From Bdellovibrio bacteriovorus (GTDB lineage Bacteria > Bdellovibrionota > Bdellovibrionia > Bdellovibrionales > Bdellovibrionaceae): a DNA stretch of 64,000 bases. The notes beneath the pieces were generated by a model. It made no database searches. It was not told the origin of the DNA and worked only from the letters and a program-made list of their open reading frames with translations. The position numbers and the translations under genes are program-made. The stretch is from positions 372,001-436,000 of the forward strand of contig NZ_LUKE01000001.1 of the NCBI RefSeq assembly GCF_001592735.1. Reading direction: 5' to 3'. This document shows, one piece after another, positions 4,807-13,566 of this stretch. The stretch's first letter is position 1, and the number at the start of each line of letters is the position of its first letter.

Positions 4807-6819
4807 TTAAGTTGTTTGGGGGGCCGTCAATCGGCCCAGTTGTTGAATCAAATCACGACGGCGCATGGGTTTACTCATGTGCACGTCAAATCCCGAAGAC
4901 AAACAACGCGTTTGCTCCTCTAACATGGCATTGGCCGTTAAAGCGATCACCAGGCCCTTATATCCCAACGCGCGCAGCTCTTGCACCGCTTGACACCCGT
5001 CTTTTATCGGCATTTGGACATCCATCAAGATCACATCAAATGAATCAGTTAAAGCGGCCTGAACGCCTTCTTCACCATTGCTGGCTAAAATCGTGACGGC
5101 CCCGGCGTCTTCTAAAGTTCTTTTTAAAAGAGCTTGAATGTCACTAGAATCCTCAACCACCAAAATTTTTCGTCCTCGTAAGACCTGACTTAAATCTTCT
5201 TCCTGAGCTTCGGGAGATAAAGTCGATGAATCGATCGTTTTAAATTCGGCTTCTTCAATAGGTTCGGCGGTGATGGTCAACACAAAGGTGCTGCCCGCAT
5301 TGACATCTGATTCTTTCAAAACCAGATCTCCGCCTAAGTGACGCGCGAGGCCCCGGGACAATGCTAAACCCAAGCCCGTTCCGCCGAATTGACGTGTGCG
5401 TGACATGTCAACCTGACTGAAGGGTTGAAAAAGTAAGGACGTCTGATCCGCCGCAATGCCCACGCCCGAATCTTGGATTTCAAAAATAATTCTGTTTTCA
5501 CGCGGAAATTGCCGCGCCATTTTCATGCGCACAAAACCCGAAGGTGTGAATTTTACGGCATTGCCTAAGACATTGATAAGCACCTGGGAAAGCCTTGTTT
5601 CATCCGTGGCGATATAACGAGGCAGCGAACCTTCGATCACAAGTTCAAGGCAAAGTCCTTTGCTTTGGGCCTTATCACAAATTGAAGCATGCACATTGTG
5701 CAAAAGATTTTGCAAATCGACTTTTTCTATTTTGATATCTAGATGCCCCACTTCGACTTTCGATAGATCTAAAATATCGTCAATCAAACGCAAGAGGTGC
5801 CCACCGTTGGTACGAATACGATCCGCCCAATCTGTGCGATCTAATTGCGCCGAGGGGGCGGCGATCAATAAATCCGCAAAACCTAAAACGGCGCCCAGAG
5901 GTGTGCGGATTTCATGGCTCACGTTGGCTAAGAAATGGGTCTTAGCGCGATTGGCGGCTTCGGCTTCATTTTTAAGTTCTTCAAGGCGTTTATATAAAAG
6001 AGCTTTCTCTAAATTAATTCCCACTTTATTGGAATACTCTTCTGCCATTAAAAGATCCATAGAATCAAACGGTGTTCGTTTTCCGGAACGTACCAAAGTC
6101 AAACTGCCAATCGTGGTTAGTCCCCGACGGATAGGCACGCAGATGTACGATGCAAAACCCAAATGTTGCAACAGGTGAAGGGCTCGATGGGATGAAATCG
6201 AAGACTTTAAAGTTTCCACGTCCACCAGGCCTCGGAAAACCGCAAACCCAGACCGAATGACTCGCAATGGATTTAACATGGCATCAGGATTTTCAGGTTT
6301 AATAGAAACATACTCTTGCAATAAGTACGTCATCACAGGATCCATGTGTGCACTTACACCCGGCCCCACATTCAACTCAGGAATAAGATCGATACGGCAC
6401 CAATCACAGATGTCTCTGACGGCGACTTGGGCGGCCTCTTTTAAAGACTCTTCCGCTTTTAAGGCGATATCTGGAGGACCATCCAGCGACTTCAGCGTAT
6501 TGGCAAAAAACGAAAGCACTCTTTGCAGATACAGCTCTTCGCGGGAATCACGTAAAGAAATAAGGACCACATCGTCAACTTCAAGACGGGTTTTATGAAA
6601 TCTTAGAAGTTGCGAAATTCCATAAGGAAGAAGTTGTACAACATCATTCCAATATTTTCCGATAACACGGTTTTTGGGTAAGTTTAAAAGTCTCGAGGCT
6701 GCTTCATTAATATTGATAACGCGTTCATCCGAGCGCGCAAAAACCAACGGGTGAGGAATAGCCTCAAACGTCTTTCCCCATAATTCACTCGATATTTCAT
6801 CTGTTAGCGAACCGCGCAT
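4807..6819 (-). CDS. Hybrid sensor histidine kinase with PAS, GAF and receiver domains
   Basis: A cytosolic two-component protein of 670 residues. The order is PAS-like (about 10-75), GAF-like (about 110-275), a coiled linker (275-295), HisKA with phospho-accepting His302 in ANVSHEIRTPLG, and an HATPase domain. The HATPase domain has the N box at Asn420, DSGVG at 450-454 and GGTGLGLA at 479-486. A receiver domain from about 550 follows, with VVEDSSD and phospho-accepting Asp600 in VILMDVQMPIKDG. There are no transmembrane segments, so the signal is probably intracellular. The next phosphorelay partner is not in this window. AGGGTGA precedes the ATG. The gene is monocistronic and converges with the acidic-protein gene. 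Confidence 0.95.
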   Translation of the reverse strand: MRGSLTDEISSELWGKTFEAIPHPLVFARSDERVININEAASRLLNLPKNRVIGKYWNDVVQLLPYGISQLLRFHKTRLEVDDVVLISLRDSREELYLQRVLSFFANTLKSLDGPPDIALKAEESLKEAAQVAVRDICDWCRIDLIPELNVGPGVSAHMDPVMTYLLQEYVSIKPENPDAMLNPLRVIRSGFAVFRGLVDVETLKSSISSHRALHLLQHLGFASYICVPIRRGLTTIGSLTLVRSGKRTPFDSMDLLMAEEYSNKVGINLEKALLYKRLEELKNEAEAANRAKTHFLANVSHEIRTPLGAVLGFADLLIAAPSAQLDRTDWADRIRTNGGHLLRLIDDILDLSKVEVGHLDIKIEKVDLQNLLHNVHASICDKAQSKGLCLELVIEGSLPRYIATDETRLSQVLINVLGNAVKFTPSGFVRMKMARQFPRENRIIFEIQDSGVGIAADQTSLLFQPFSQVDMSRTRQFGGTGLGLALSRGLARHLGGDLVLKESDVNAGSTFVLTITAEPIEEAEFKTIDSSTLSPEAQEEDLSQVLRGRKILVVEDSSDIQALLKRTLEDAGAVTILASNGEEGVQAALTDSFDVILMDVQMPIKDGCQAVQELRALGYKGLVIALTANAMLEEQTRCLSSGFDVHMSKPMRRRDLIQQLGRLTAPQTT

Positions 6820-6891: not shown

Positions 6892-7719
6892 TTACAACTT
6901 CACGGACTTATTTGCCGCACCGACGGTAAAGATTTTTTGTTCAGTCTTATCGACTAGATACGTTTTAAGAGCCGCGAGCACCAAAGAAAACGAAAGACCC
7001 ACTTCAATCTCTCCTTTGTCTGTACGCAATGACTTAAATTCACTCAAACTTTGCTTTGCCACCGTGATTCTCTGTAAAAAATAGGCGGCCGACAGGGTGT
7101 CTTGATCCCCGTATCTGTTTAAAAGGATATTACGAACCCCGGGGATTTTATGGGACTCATCCGGCTCCGCCGTAATCGTTTTAAGATTTTTATCTATTCC
7201 CTCACCGATCCCCCGCAGGGAATGCCCCGTGCCCACGGCACCGATCACCGCATCCATAGGTCCTAAAGTGTTTTTCACGGCATGACCGAAAGCATGATAA
7301 TGCCGACGCTTGCCTTCATCATAAAGCTGATTAAAACGAAAGAGTTCAGGCCGCATCGCCATCACCTGATCATATTTTTCATAGATCACAGACAAATCTT
7401 CCTGATGAACTTCGGCCCCATGCGCCTGCAATCGCGCCACGATATCTGCTGAAGCGGTCATGGGAACAAATAGCACGCAAGGCATACCTAACTGTCGACT
7501 GTAATAAGCCAGGGACAGGGCCGTGCTTCCAGCGCTGACCTCCGAAACACCTTTAAAACCCGCGCTTTTTAGTTTTTGCAACTGCTGAAGTTCGCCTAAG
7601 ACCATGTGGTCCTTAATAGAGCCCCCCGGATTTTCGCCTTCAAGCGAGGTGAAAATCCGATGGCCTTTTTCTAACCCCAAAGAACTCTCTAAAATTTCTA
7701 CGAAGCGCGGCTTTAACAT
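6892..7719 (-). CDS. PLP-dependent cysteine synthase/cystathionine beta-synthase-like enzyme
   Basis: Encodes 275 residues of fold-type II PLP enzyme. The PLP lysine is in GENPGGSIKDHM (about residue 36), the substrate-loop motif is SAGSTALSLAYY, and AVGTGHSLRG binds the cofactor phosphate. It is shorter than usual cysteine synthases (about 300 residues), mainly at the C-terminus. The substrate-loop sequence also differs from the TSGNT of CysK, so O-acetylserine may not be its natural substrate. Its ATG overlaps the stop of the upstream E1-like gene in TAATG, so the two are translationally coupled. In sulfur-carrier pathways such as CysM of mycobacteria, an E1-like enzyme feeds sulfur to a cysteine synthase. 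A similar link here is inference. Confidence 0.85.
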   Translation of the reverse strand: MLKPRFVEILESSLGLEKGHRIFTSLEGENPGGSIKDHMVLGELQQLQKLKSAGFKGVSEVSAGSTALSLAYYSRQLGMPCVLFVPMTASADIVARLQAHGAEVHQEDLSVIYEKYDQVMAMRPELFRFNQLYDEGKRRHYHAFGHAVKNTLGPMDAVIGAVGTGHSLRGIGEGIDKNLKTITAEPDESHKIPGVRNILLNRYGDQDTLSAAYFLQRITVAKQSLSEFKSLRTDKGEIEVGLSFSLVLAALKTYLVDKTEQKIFTVGAANKSVKL

Positions 7720-8561
7720 TAAGCGACCTTTTTTGTTTTCAAGTCACTTGGGATGTTTAAGAGGCGTACCTTATAGGAGGCTTCAAAAACGGTGGTTGAG
7801 GCATTGGCTAAATCCACAAAAATTCCTTGTGGCGACACCACGGCTTTGCCCAAGCCCACGATGTTTTTTGCAATCTCCGAAGCCGCCACCGCCGCCGAGG
7901 CCTCCCCTCCGGGAGTCACAAACGGAATATACCCAGAACGATCCATCGCATGGATCAGCTGCCCCCACATATAAGGAGGAACTTCAGGACAAATGAATCT
8001 TAAGTATCGAGACAAATTTTCTTCATACGGCAAATCCGGAGAAATCCCCGTCTGTTCGGCAAATGACGGAGTGCCTTTTTTAAAAACCACACAGCACCCC
8101 GTAAACCCTAAGGTCGCGGAAGTCACTACCGGGATTCCACGTTTGTGAGCCTCCATGTTTAAGGCAAGCTTATCATTCATGGCAAAAAGATCCACCACAT
8201 CCACGACCCAGTCGACACCTTCAAGAAATTCGCTTAAGTTTTCTTTTTTTACTCCGTCTTTAAAAACTTTGATCTTCACTTCGGGATTGATCGCCAGGGC
8301 TTCCTCCACCGAGCATTCGTCTTTACGCATGCCAATGGTTGTTTCTTTGGCCATACGCTGACGATTGATATTTGTACGTTCAAAAGTATCTGGATCCGCG
8401 ATATGAAAATTTTCAAATCCCATTCTTACTAAATTGATGAAAATAGATCCACCAAGTCCCAAGCCCCCGATAGCGACTTTGGTTTTTTTAAATTTATAAA
8501 CTTGCTCTTTGGTAAAGATTCCGATGCTGCGCAAAATTCTTTCGTCATATTTATTGTTCAT
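7719..8561 (-). CDS. E1-like adenylating enzyme (ThiF/MoeB/HesA superfamily)
   Basis: A 280-residue single-domain protein. It has a Rossmann glycine motif GGLGLGGS at about 33-40, an acidic residue plus TNINRQ at about 64-69 (the ATP-binding NxxRQ element), and VDWVVDVVDLF as the later nucleotide-contact strand. The paired CxxC zinc motifs usual in MoeB/ThiF are not evident; the Cys present are a CC pair and isolated ones. E1-like enzymes adenylate the C-terminal glycine of a ubiquitin-like sulfur carrier, or other carboxylates such as those of tRNA or peptides. No carrier protein ending in GG is visible nearby. It is the first gene of a two-gene operon with the PLP enzyme and diverges from the gene at 8653. 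Confidence 0.88.
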   Translation of the reverse strand: MNNKYDERILRSIGIFTKEQVYKFKKTKVAIGGLGLGGSIFINLVRMGFENFHIADPDTFERTNINRQRMAKETTIGMRKDECSVEEALAINPEVKIKVFKDGVKKENLSEFLEGVDWVVDVVDLFAMNDKLALNMEAHKRGIPVVTSATLGFTGCCVVFKKGTPSFAEQTGISPDLPYEENLSRYLRFICPEVPPYMWGQLIHAMDRSGYIPFVTPGGEASAAVAASEIAKNIVGLGKAVVSPQGIFVDLANASTTVFEASYKVRLLNIPSDLKTKKVA

Positions 8562-8652
8562 AAAATCTCCCTATTTTTTTATCAAACTCTTTATTATTTA
8601 CGGAAGATGTCCGATAAAATTAAAGACTAGAAAAAATCCAGGAGAAACCTTA

Positions 8653-9402
8653 ATGAGTGAAGCGTTTAAAAAATTTCAGCTGGTCGTCTTAGAGTCCCCG
8701 ATCGAAAACTGGAGTGATCCAGCCGTGCAAAAATTATTTAACAAAATGGTGACCCTAAAAAAGAACGGTTATGAAAGCCGGTACTCCCAAGGCGTTTTAC
8801 CTGTGGACACTTCGGACTTTTTTGCCACGCACGTTTTACTGTGCGAAAAGAAAATCAATAACGATTTAAATCCTATCATGGGATATAAAACGGTGAGCTT
8901 AAGCAAGTGCTTGCAGTACAATCAAAACTTTCCGGGGCTGGGACTAGTTCAAAGTGCGAACGCCACCGAACATATTAGCGTCGTGAAAGACATCGTTCAG
9001 CGCTGCAGCCAAAACAATACGGGTCTTTCTTACCTCGGGTCTTGGACCATAGATCCTGAGTTCAAAAATCGATGTCCACAGGACGTTCACCTAAAAAGCG
9101 CATTTATCACCTTTTACCATCAGCTTTATCAAGAGCAGGGTATTAAGGAAGTACTTATCGGGGGAACTCTTCGCTTTAAGACCGAAAAGCTTTTTGCAGA
9201 ACTGGGCCACAGGCCTTTAAGCAAGGATGGCAAAGATCTATCGAATATTTTTGTGACTCATTTAGTGAAAGAGCCCGTCCTTGTAATGCACGCCACTCAG
9301 TTCCTGACGCCACCCACTTTGCAAACTAAAATTTGGCAGCAGATTTGGGATGAGCGACGGGTCCTAGGCTCGTCCTATGCAAAATTGAGATTGGCTGCGT
9401 GA
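8653..9402 (+). CDS. Putative acyltransferase-like protein (GNAT-type fold suspected)
   Basis: Encodes 249 residues with no signal peptide or membrane helix. The layout suggests a GNAT-like N-acyltransferase: an N-terminal stretch with VTLKKNGYESRY, a central strand YLGSWTIDPEFKNRC followed by a long helix, and IKEVLIGGTLRFKTEKLFAELGH. The match is by pattern only and is not secure. The ATG at 8653 has AGGAGA about eight bases upstream and was preferred to the longer frame from 8509, which reaches into the divergent regulatory interval. It diverges from the E1-like/PLP operon. Its last 28 bases overlap, head to head at the 3' ends, the gene ending at 9375. Confidence 0.6.
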   Translation: MSEAFKKFQLVVLESPIENWSDPAVQKLFNKMVTLKKNGYESRYSQGVLPVDTSDFFATHVLLCEKKINNDLNPIMGYKTVSLSKCLQYNQNFPGLGLVQSANATEHISVVKDIVQRCSQNNTGLSYLGSWTIDPEFKNRCPQDVHLKSAFITFYHQLYQEQGIKEVLIGGTLRFKTEKLFAELGHRPLSKDGKDLSNIFVTHLVKEPVLVMHATQFLTPPTLQTKIWQQIWDERRVLGSSYAKLRLAA

Positions 9403-10244
9403 TATAAAACACCTTTAGCAAAAGTAATTTCAAACACGCATGCCGGGGCCCCATGATGAACGCAGCAACGCTCTATCACTTTGGCGGGCGCTTCCCCACG
9501 ATACATCGGGGCTGAAGCCATCATCCCCGCCTTTAAAGAACAGATGTATTCATTGCCTAGATGGGTCGTTTCCATTTCCTGGGCCACATGCGGGTCCGAA
9601 GAGACTTCCAGTAAAGCTCCCTCTTCGTTCAATTTTAAAAAACGATAGCGACAGTTCTTTTCATAAAAGTTAAGACAGTCGCCCCACATGTGTTCGATCA
9701 CCTCTTTGGAGGTTTCTAACTCGGAATAAAATCTTCCTAAAAGAGTGTTCACGTTACCAGAATAGGAATACATCCCCATCGCAAAAAAATCCTTCGCGGT
9801 GAAATGGCGATGCCCCAAGTACGCCAACGCGTCGGTGATCACTTGCATGCTGATCGGAGCAAAAGGATCCGTCAGGATAGATTCACTTAAACCTAAGTGT
9901 TTCAGAACTTCGTAACGCAAGCGCCATCCGTGATTTCTTTCAATATATTCAAATGTAGTGATCGTGGTGCGACGGCGCCCGTAATTAGCCACGGCGTAGG
10001 CGTCGGGCATTTCCCACCGGCTTTTTTCTGATTGAATTTGTATAGAATGAAAATCGACTTTCCCCGTAATCACGGCGCGAGGATCAGAGTCAAAATATTC
10101 AGAAAGGCGCAGCAAGGCCTGTTCAGACAGCTGTTTTTTACCCGAGCGGACCATGACATAATCCCACCAAGTCAGCTGTAGCAAATCCTGCCACTGAGAA
10201 TCATCAATATCGGTCACGACGCGGAGACGTTCAAGTGTGTCCAT
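9375..10244 (-). CDS. HTH-like regulator with C-terminal V4R-like sensor region
   Basis: Encodes 289 residues. The N-terminal 60 residues (ending LSEYFDSDPRAV) resemble a Xre-like helix-turn-helix. The last 60 residues contain IERCCVHHGAPACVFEITF, the Cys-rich C-x-H-G-x-P-x-C-x-FEI pattern of V4R/heme-NO-binding-associated sensor domains. The central part is helical. A longer frame reaches 10283, but the ATG at 10244 has AGAAAG close upstream. The likely job is sensing a small molecule, metal or protein partner and regulating genes nearby, possibly the E1-like/PLP set. The domain names are pattern-based. Confidence 0.65.
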   Translation of the reverse strand: MDTLERLRVVTDIDDSQWQDLLQLTWWDYVMVRSGKKQLSEQALLRLSEYFDSDPRAVITGKVDFHSIQIQSEKSRWEMPDAYAVANYGRRRTTITTFEYIERNHGWRLRYEVLKHLGLSESILTDPFAPISMQVITDALAYLGHRHFTAKDFFAMGMYSYSGNVNTLLGRFYSELETSKEVIEHMWGDCLNFYEKNCRYRFLKLNEEGALLEVSSDPHVAQEMETTHLGNEYICSLKAGMMASAPMYRGEAPAKVIERCCVHHGAPACVFEITFAKGVLYHAANLNFA

Positions 10245-10374: not shown

Positions 10375-13300
10375 CTAAACCACTGTTTCGTCGTGGCCAA
10401 AGATGCGGCGGTAATGCTTCATAAACCAGTTTTGAAAGCGGTCGACGTAAATGTGCAACGCGGGGATTACATATAACGTCAATAAGGTCGAACTGATGGT
10501 CCCCCCGATCACCACGATACCTAAGCTGGTACGTGACTTTGAGGCCTCATTTAAACCAATCGCCACGGGAACCATCCCGGCAATCAAAGCAAGACTTGTC
10601 ATAATAATCGGTCTTAAACGAGTTTCCCCGGCTTTCACCAGGGCTTCCTTCACATCAGCGCCATGACGTTGTTGTTCCGCCGCCGAGTCAATCAAAAGGA
10701 TCGAGTTCTTGGTCGCGAGTCCCATCAACATCACACAACCAATCATCGAAAATAAGTCAAAGCTTGAGCGAGTCACAAATAATGAAATAAAGGCCCCGCA
10801 AGCGGCCAGCGGAATCACCGACATAATTGTAAATGGCGTAATAAATGACCCATACAAGCTTGCCAAAACCAAGAAGATAAACATCACACCCAATCCTAAA
10901 GAGACCAGGATGTTTGTCATAAGTTCCGCAAAACGTTCGGCTTCCCCCACGAAGCTAAAGCTCACCCCCGCCGGAGGCTTAAGTTCCCCTTGGCTTAAAG
11001 TTTTAAGCTCACTAATCACGCCCCCAAGTCCTTTCCCACCAGGAGTGATATCGGCGGACAATTGAACGTAACGATTTCGATTTTCACGCAAGATCACCGA
11101 AGGACCTTGAGCTTCTTTTAAATTTGCCACATTGGCCAAAGGAACTAAGCGTTGGCTTAAGTTTGGAACCTTCAGAGTCGAAAACTGATTACGCAAATCA
11201 CGCTCTTCTGGACGAAGGCGGACACGCACGTCATAGTTCACTCCGTTTTCACGATAAATCGCTGGCGTTTGACCTTCGATCAAAGTACGAAGCTCCATCC
11301 CGATGCTGGTCAAGGTCACGCCTGAGGCTTGCGCGATATCACGTTTTAGCTGCACTTGGAATTCGGGCTTACCCGCACGATAACTGCTGTCGGGCTGAGA
11401 TAAGCTGGGATTGCTTTTTAAGTACGCCAACACTTTTTCCGAGTACTCAATCAGCTCCGTCATATTTTGCCCCACGATATTCACGTTGAACTGACGGCTG
11501 TTCTGCTGACCTGGATTGTCGGTGACAATCACGTTGTATTTTTCTAAACCTTTAAAGGCTTCACGAAGTTCGGCCTTCATCGCGGTGGTGTTCTTTGTCC
11601 GTTTTTTAGAGGGCACCAAACGCACAAACAGGCTGCCCTTATGGCTTTCTTGGTTGCCCGACCCAATCGTGGTTAAGATGTCTTCAACTTCAGGGAATTT
11701 GCGAGCCCGCTCTTCAAGCTGATGACCGACGTAGTCTGTCCCATCAAGACTGGCGCCCGGAGCTAACTCAAATTGCACATAGAACTCACCATTGTCTTGG
11801 GCCGGCAAGAAGGTAAACGGAACACGAGACGCAATAAAGATCGAGAAAATGAAAATTCCAATCGCGCCCACGATAGTTTTAATCGGATGACCCAAGGCCC
11901 ACCGCAAGGTCGTCACATAGCCTTTTTCCAACCACACTTGGAAGCGGTCAAAAGCCTTAAGCATATTATGATTCCAGCGCGCAAAACGATTCGTTGGTGG
12001 ATGATGAGAATGCGTCCCCGCCACATAAGCTGACAAAGCCGGAGCCACGAATAGACCGTCAAATAAGCTCACGATCATGGCAAAGCAGATGGTTAAACCA
12101 AACTGCTTAAAGAACTGACCCACGATGCCTTGAAGATTTCCGATCGGGCCAAAAACCGCCAAGATCGTCAGTGTTGTCGCCACAACCGCCAGGGTCACTT
12201 CATTGGTACCCACGACCGCCGCTTTTTTCGGTGACAACCCGGCCTCTAACTTACGGAAAATATTTTCCCTCACCACGATAGCATCGTCGACTAAAAGACC
12301 GACCACCAAGCTCATGGCCAACAAGCTCATGATATTGATCGAAAAGCCAAAGATCCCCATCACGATACAGGCCCCCAATAAAGAGTTCGGTAACGCAAAG
12401 CCCGTGATCAGGGTCGACTTCATACTTCCTAAGAAGAAATAAACCACGATGACTGTTAAAATGACCCCGAATAAAATCGACTCATAAACATCGTAAACGT
12501 TATCGCGGATTCTTTTACTGGTGTCTTGAATGACCTTCATCTCGGCTGGGATGTTTTTGCTTTTTAAGTCTTCATTGATTTTTAAGACTTTCGCGCGCAC
12601 ATCATCAGCCACTTTAACAGAGTTGGCGCCGGATTGACGAAAGACGCTAAATACCAATGATTTTTTGCCGTTCAAACGGCTGCGCGTTTTTTCATCCTCT
12701 AGCGTGTCTTGAATTTTCCCGACCGTCCCGATTGTGATCGGATGATACACGTCCGCCAGACGTAAAACCGTTCCGCCGATTTCGTCAATGGATTGATATT
12801 GTCCTAAGGTTCTAAATGAAAACTGCGTATTACCAACATCAATTTTACCCGCCGGAATGTTGCGTCCACCACTGCGTAAGGCTTCCGCGATACTTGTCGC
12901 CGATACGTCCGTACCATTTAAGCGGTCGCGGCTGAGACTGACATGGATTTCACGCTTACGTCCCCCGATAATATCAACCTGACCTACTTGATAGACCTGT
13001 TCGAATTGCGGTGAAATAGTTTCTTTGGCCAAATCATAAAGCTGGCCATCAGGAATATCTGACTGCAAAGCAATCGACATGATCGGCGCATCGGAAGGAC
13101 TGACCTTACGAATCACCGGCATATCCACATCATCCGGCAGATCCCGCAAAGCATTTTGAACTTTGGCGCGCACTTCTTGTTCGGCAAAGTTCAAATTGGT
13201 TTTAAGCGAGAACTCGATGATCAACATCGAAACGCTTTCCATGTTTTGCGAAGAAACTTTTTGCACCCCACTGATAGTGGCAACTTGATCTTCTAAAACT

Positions 13301-13494
13301 CGGGTGATTTCCGTTTCGATCTCTTGGGGACCAGCTCCCGAGTAGGTCGTGTAAACAACCACGGTCGGAAGACTCACGTCTGGATAAAGATCAATTGGGA
13401 GACTCTTTAATGACATCGTTCCCAGCGTAAGCATGAGAATCACTAAAGACATAATAAAAATAGGATGGCGTACGGATAATAAAGCTGGTGACAT
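10375..13494 (-). CDS. RND-family multidrug/metabolite efflux permease (HAE1/AcrB type)
   Basis: About 1040 residues, the full length for the family, with the usual two repeats of an N-terminal helix, a large periplasmic domain and a bundle of membrane helices. The first helix follows MSPALLSVRHPIFIMSL. The TM4 proton-relay signature LLVDDAIVVREN contains the conserved paired Asp. The frame continues upstream to a TTG at 13530. I favour the ATG at 13494 because it places the first helix as in other family members, though neither start has a convincing ribosome binding site. No membrane-fusion or outer-membrane partner lies beside it, so it must work with components encoded elsewhere. The substrate cannot be judged. 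Confidence 0.93.
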   Translation of the reverse strand: MSPALLSVRHPIFIMSLVILMLTLGTMSLKSLPIDLYPDVSLPTVVVYTTYSGAGPQEIETEITRVLEDQVATISGVQKVSSQNMESVSMLIIEFSLKTNLNFAEQEVRAKVQNALRDLPDDVDMPVIRKVSPSDAPIMSIALQSDIPDGQLYDLAKETISPQFEQVYQVGQVDIIGGRKREIHVSLSRDRLNGTDVSATSIAEALRSGGRNIPAGKIDVGNTQFSFRTLGQYQSIDEIGGTVLRLADVYHPITIGTVGKIQDTLEDEKTRSRLNGKKSLVFSVFRQSGANSVKVADDVRAKVLKINEDLKSKNIPAEMKVIQDTSKRIRDNVYDVYESILFGVILTVIVVYFFLGSMKSTLITGFALPNSLLGACIVMGIFGFSINIMSLLAMSLVVGLLVDDAIVVRENIFRKLEAGLSPKKAAVVGTNEVTLAVVATTLTILAVFGPIGNLQGIVGQFFKQFGLTICFAMIVSLFDGLFVAPALSAYVAGTHSHHPPTNRFARWNHNMLKAFDRFQVWLEKGYVTTLRWALGHPIKTIVGAIGIFIFSIFIASRVPFTFLPAQDNGEFYVQFELAPGASLDGTDYVGHQLEERARKFPEVEDILTTIGSGNQESHKGSLFVRLVPSKKRTKNTTAMKAELREAFKGLEKYNVIVTDNPGQQNSRQFNVNIVGQNMTELIEYSEKVLAYLKSNPSLSQPDSSYRAGKPEFQVQLKRDIAQASGVTLTSIGMELRTLIEGQTPAIYRENGVNYDVRVRLRPEERDLRNQFSTLKVPNLSQRLVPLANVANLKEAQGPSVILRENRNRYVQLSADITPGGKGLGGVISELKTLSQGELKPPAGVSFSFVGEAERFAELMTNILVSLGLGVMFIFLVLASLYGSFITPFTIMSVIPLAACGAFISLFVTRSSFDLFSMIGCVMLMGLATKNSILLIDSAAEQQRHGADVKEALVKAGETRLRPIIMTSLALIAGMVPVAIGLNEASKSRTSLGIVVIGGTISSTLLTLYVIPALHIYVDRFQNWFMKHYRRIFGHDETVV

Positions 13495-13566
13495 GGGCGG
13501 CAAACTAGCAGTTCGCACCAGTCCCGACAACAGAAGATAATTTCTGGCCCCGAATCAACCTGGCCA

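Follow-up and report, generated by a model that had tools for sequence, protein, structure and literature searches.

What product, and what purpose, would bring together an E1-like enzyme, a cysteine-synthase-like enzyme, an acyltransferase and a regulator in four adjoining genes of Bdellovibrio bacteriovorus? The locus lies in a window of 64,000 nucleotides, the whole stretch of DNA that was analysed. On the reverse strand, the open reading frame of a ThiF-type E1 (7719-8561, 280 residues, with a ThiF match) is followed by that of a PLP-dependent, CysK-like enzyme (6892-7719, 275 residues, with a PALP match), and the two are coupled through TAATG, in which the TAA of the E1 gene and the ATG of the PLP gene have one base in common. 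The acyltransferase gene (8653-9402, forward strand, 249 residues) diverges from this pair across 91 bp (8562-8652), presumably the control region, and overlaps tail to tail, by 28 bp, the gene of a regulator with an HTH-like and a V4R-like part (9375-10244, reverse strand, 289 residues); both of these open reading frames were assigned with the help of AF2 models. The coupling, the divergence and the overlap had all been pointed out in a preliminary description, which read the locus as an uncharacterised sulfur or amino-acid-derived metabolite pathway with its own sensor. The amino-acid-derived part of that reading and the sensor fit well with the results below, and the sulfur part has to be given up.

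The four genes are kept together and in the same order, and not scattered, in seven genomes from two families: four members of the genus, two further members of the same family and one member of the Bacteriovoracaceae. Because it is kept in other genomes, the order is far beyond chance. The distribution is patchy within the genus (4 of 24), and two more genomes hold the set with only the PLP gene missing. The divergent intergenic regions had no common operator motif on inspection by eye. Downstream of the PLP gene lies the gene of a hybrid histidine kinase (4807-6819, reverse strand; PAS-GAF-HisKA-HATPase-REC by Pfam), probably an associated signalling gene; related histidine kinases flank most members of the clade with E1 and PLP genes, on the other flank in the Bacteriovoracaceae (L069/L102). 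The neighbouring kinase at locus L053 was rejected as an orthologue of the window kinase, as was an 894-residue neighbour at locus L052 (alignment A6), which resembles aconitase, and we thus claim the kinase linkage for most members only. The genome from which the window comes holds another such module at a distance of about 446 kb (L047, 5269-9593), consisting of an HTH, a V4R-like regulator, an acyltransferase, an alpha/beta hydrolase and an E1. Viral contigs and phages contained no relative of the window acyltransferase, and plasmids no DNA match to the locus.

The protein encoded at 8653 has no sequence match in Pfam, NCBIfam or the PDB. Its AF2 model, built from six sequences (the window and related loci), is confident (pLDDT 86.7, pTM 0.86) and has the GNAT fold that the preliminary description had considered possible, with LuxI/FeeM enzymes as its nearest neighbours. 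The top solved structures are FeeM (Z 16.6 over 175 residues), RpaI (16.1), BjaI (16.0) and LasI (15.2), with MesI likewise among them; the remaining GNATs score lower (Z 12-15). By its predicted fold the protein is a LuxI/FeeM-type acyltransferase, and by score it stands outside the FeeM Pfam family (PF21926, taken at its gathering score), to which it has no match and 3 of 54 members of its own family match weakly. Across these 54 homologues D55 is invariant and K36, H60 and G185 are nearly so; we take D52-x-x-D55 to resemble the D45-x-x-D48 motif of LuxI enzymes. Likeness to FeeM is weak at the level of sequence. The comparison of a six-sequence profile with one FeeM was uninformative, and a profile of all 54 sequences aligned co-linearly with canonical FeeM, with an E of 0.0022 in one comparison and an hhalign probability of 13%, which gave weak co-linear support. 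On the strength of the model, we propose that this protein is an N-acyl amino acid synthase.

The E1 matches Pfam ThiF with an E of 1e-33, and its best NCBIfam models, PRK08223 and PRK14851/14852, score well above ThiF and MoeB and below their curated cut-offs. Its ATP site is invariant in nine orthologues (GxGxxG, D56, N66-R67-Q68, K80 and D121/D124). In the E1 tree, a supported clade holds nine acyltransferase-linked E1s, including all seven that are linked to the PLP gene. Among 27 related Bdellovibrionota E1 loci that lack a window-type acyltransferase, a canonical FeeM is found nearby in 12, an arrangement known from the acyl-oxazolone clusters OxzAB, TyzABC and TrzAS, and a nitroreductase in 7, and a homologue from Nitratidesulfovibrio is a single FeeM, ThiF and nitroreductase fusion protein. 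By these affinities the E1 belongs with the FeeM/OxzB/TyzB-type partners that adenylate and cyclise N-acyl amino acids, and we propose that it is a carboxylate-activating cyclase. The ThiF homologues TyzB, OxzB and TrzS use ATP to close N-acyl amino acids into oxazolones (PMC10404671, PMC12856293).

The PLP enzyme is of fold-type II and falls in the CysK/CysM superfamily (Pfam PALP, E 5.6e-26), and it is short at its C-terminus. It scores 54 bits against the cysteine synthase (CysK/CysM) equivalog models, whose cut-offs are 344-413. The substitution of SAGST for TSGNT, remarked on earlier in the window sequence, is a property of the family: A63-G64-S65 is invariant and the Asn of the SGN loop is replaced by Ser in all seven orthologues, as K36 (the Schiff-base lysine) and GTGHS are also invariant. 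At E <= 1e-30, the family occurs in 7 of 369 genomes, in a single copy each and only at the four-gene locus. Since fold-type II PLP enzymes of this kind require a free amino group, the enzyme is most simply placed before N-acylation, and we propose that it supplies the amino-acid substrate.

The coupling of an E1 to a CysK-like enzyme also brings to mind a sulfur-carrier pathway, in which the E1 would charge a GG-ended carrier and the CysK-like enzyme would use its thiocarboxylate, and operons that combine ThiS/MoaD, an E1, a JAB protein and a cysteine synthase do exist (PMC1779556). The GG-ended carrier foreseen in the preliminary description was not found, however: the complete genome has no ThiS/MoaD family member (no match to PF02597, with a control that was positive in 11 of 14 genomes), and the locus itself has no JAB, rhodanese or carrier. 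The E1, correctly described before as having no evident zinc Cys pairs, has no CxxC and no invariant Cys across nine orthologues. This pathway would need a highly divergent carrier, is already contradicted and seems to us very improbable. The notion of an E1-based anti-phage conjugation system, prompted by weak matches to PADLOC E1-E2 models (best 36 bits), is scarcely credible, as these matches span the generic adenylation domain only, the partner genes are metabolic, and the locus lacks an E2, a JAB, a nucleotide cyclase and an effector.

The V4R assignment of the regulator is weak by Pfam, with PF02830 giving 17.7 bits against a gathering score of 31 (E 0.0038) and weak matches in 7 of 12 family members, and it is the AF2 model (pLDDT 79) that upholds it. 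The ligand-type domain, at about residues 88-280, has a predicted V4R/H-NOX/TRAPP fold (H-NOX Z about 13.5 over 170 residues, Bet3 Z about 10), and the Foldseek matches of the model include PoxR and MopR. The window regulator has no Pfam HTH match; its HTH half was assigned from the helical N-terminus of the model and from HTH_3 matches in related regulators. Three Cys are invariant in nine orthologues, among them a C-x7-C whose spacing presumably resembles that of the V4R metal site. In spite of the H-NOX fold, we dropped a haem sensor as the probable identity of the regulator, as an alignment of close orthologues has neither the YxSxR motif nor a conserved proximal histidine. The ligands of proteins with the V4R/H-NOX/TRAPP fold are haem, phenols or a fatty acyl chain. 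A hydrophobic small molecule would be the natural inference for the ligand of the modelled domain.

Based on this analysis, we lean slightly towards a locus for the synthesis and detection of a small N-acyl amino acid derivative, and we can present a proposal for how it might work. The CysK-like enzyme would produce a particular, probably non-proteinogenic, amino acid, to whose amino group the LuxI/FeeM-type GNAT, confidently predicted in fold, could couple a fatty acyl group. The E1 would then adenylate the free carboxylate with ATP, as its family membership suggests, and the AMP would be displaced by the amide oxygen or by a side-chain nucleophile to give an oxazolone or a similar ring, a step that would proceed without a sulfur carrier or thioester. 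The HTH regulator may bind the product through its V4R/H-NOX-fold domain, with the hybrid kinase possibly a second input beside it, and the product-bound regulator would control the locus and other genes in the manner of an autoinducer system. A nitroreductase/FDO is absent from the locus in the window and in the orthologues, and the genome has only two nitroreductases, both short and both elsewhere. The product would be saturated, and a classical conjugated oxazolone or azlactone is not expected because no FDO is present at the locus.

The window locus is not an isolated case. Relatives of the acyltransferase occur in 81 of 369 sampled Bdellovibrionota genomes, and a V4R-type regulator lies within 2.6 kb at 51 of 55 acyltransferase loci, tail to tail at 38; about half of the synthase loci pair with histidine kinases. 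An E1 is present in 23 of the 55 and a SAM methyltransferase in 23, with both in one and neither in eight. Over the 55 loci an apparent alternation of E1 and methyltransferase gives a Fisher p of 8e-8, but the labels cluster on the tree: it takes six switches to explain them, and the sign test could draw on just three independent pairs on starred branches. The alternation suggests that E1 and methyltransferase are two ways to cap the same carboxylate. As the same synthase-regulator core is found across Bdellovibrionota with other tailoring genes (a methyltransferase or an alpha/beta hydrolase), the window locus belongs to a family that has diversified. Taken together, these loci look to be a diversified, undescribed family of LuxI/FeeM-like systems whose receptors have the H-NOX/V4R fold; in the open-access literature we found no description of a V4R-paired synthase family.

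Two other readings accept the enzymes and differ in what they make or what it is for. The E1-activated N-acyl amino acid could instead be attacked by a side chain or by another molecule, yielding a lactone, thiolactone, lactam, ester or amide, with the PLP enzyme providing the nucleophilic side chain; a beta-synthase-type PLP enzyme could install such a side chain, and the missing FDO and the hydrolases or methyltransferases that stand instead at related loci would agree with such a cap. The ThiF relatives in FeeM-type clusters have, however, been shown biochemically to yield oxazolones (PMC10404671, PMC12856293). We consider this set of alternative caps unlikely as a whole, while regarding a lactone or thiolactone product as a serious rival to an oxazolone. 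It is also somewhat doubtful that the metabolite is real and no signal at all, being a membrane lipid, an antimicrobial or a prey-directed compound whose regulator controls only its own pathway. Antimicrobials and cell-associated lipids are both represented among the known N-acyl amino acids and oxazolones (PMC12479983, PMC12856293), and a linked regulator is by itself no proof of signalling; yet V4R-type regulators and histidine kinases are denser at the synthase loci than expected for a plain pathway.

Extending our preferred reading, that the locus makes and senses an N-acyl amino acid derivative, to the phylum, we tentatively suggest that Bdellovibrionota possess a cell-cell signalling class that is diversified and undescribed, in which the carboxylate of an N-acyl amino acid made by the LuxI/FeeM-fold synthase would be capped by an E1-type cyclase or by a methyltransferase, and the cognate receptor would be an HTH protein of V4R/H-NOX fold, the window version having a dedicated PLP enzyme for a special amino acid. 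Little is known of how Bdellovibrio-like predators communicate chemically, and this family of loci, in which LuxI-fold synthases are paired with regulators predicted to bind small molecules, in 81 of 369 sampled genomes of the phylum, offers concrete genes to test. If the suggestion is true, acyl amino acid signalling would gain the V4R/H-NOX fold as a further receptor fold. The apparent choice between E1 and methyltransferase suggests that one cap is exchanged for the other in evolution while the intermediate stays the same.

Several known systems resemble parts of this locus. The ligand domain of the regulator shares its fold with H-NOX proteins and with the aromatic-sensing V4R domains of XylR, DmpR, PoxR and MopR, and with the latter presumably also conserved cysteines including the C-x7-C; the regulator differs from these in being a small HTH protein without an AAA+ domain, and its relatives differ from H-NOX in having neither the YxSxR motif nor the conserved haem histidine. 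The LuxI, BjaI and RpaI AHL synthases, with LuxR, are alike in synthase fold (Z 15-16) and in the adjoining regulator. Here, however, activation of the carboxylate would fall to a separate E1, so that SAM-lactone chemistry is not expected, and the regulator has, unlike LuxR, a V4R/H-NOX fold. The N-acyl amino acid synthase FeeM is the best structural match at 11% identity and with no Pfam FeeM match. In its chemistry the locus would most resemble the oxazolone clusters, namely TyzA/TyzB/TyzC and TrzA/TrzS of Mycobacterium tuberculosis and OxzA/OxzB of Pseudoalteromonas rubra. We do not count it as a member of that group because the FDO, a defining part, is absent, and it differs further in its coupled CysK-like gene restricted to such loci, its dedicated V4R-fold regulator and an acyltransferase that has diverged beyond the reach of the FeeM Pfam model. 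As in these clusters, a LuxI/FeeM-fold N-acyltransferase adjoins a ThiF-type adenylating enzyme (an E1 at the family level), and as in tyz the acyltransferase and the E1 are encoded on opposite strands. The tyz genes of M. tuberculosis are flanked by cysK1 and cysE (PMC10404671, PMC12856293), and the closest structures reported for TyzA, FeeM and BjaI (PMC10404671), are top matches of the window acyltransferase as well.

Among the 55 neighbourhoods of acyltransferase relatives in Bdellovibrionota (L103-L139), the acyltransferase gene is adjoined by an E1 gene or by a SAM methyltransferase gene, and almost never by both together. One acyltransferase subfamily (L054 7266-7988, L055 12826-13533 and L056 8210-8947, positions within each neighbourhood) occurs without E1, methyltransferase or V4R regulator and is linked to two other families, c11 and c12.

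Outside the window, the same genome carries a second, diverged module (G000:C1 about 825268-829592, corresponding to L047 5269-9593) that comprises an HTH gene, a V4R-like regulator, a LuxI/FeeM-type acyltransferase, an alpha/beta hydrolase and an E1. Canonical FeeM and ThiF clusters, some with a nitroreductase, are common in Bdellovibrionota (L154, L163, L062, L063, L166, L171-L173) and are probably acyl-oxazolone loci. A related E1 on plasmid pBdHAGR2 of Bdellovibrio sp. HAGR004 (L140 9968-10843) adjoins an ABC transporter.

The window locus is flanked by a hybrid histidine kinase (PAS-GAF-HisKA-HATPase-REC; 4807-6819, minus strand), relatives of which are present at most orthologous loci, and, directly beyond the regulator gene, by an AcrB-type RND transporter (10375-13530, minus strand), which in most relatives is not kept at the locus. 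The tyz cluster of Mycobacterium tuberculosis likewise has an RND gene (mmpL9) next to it.
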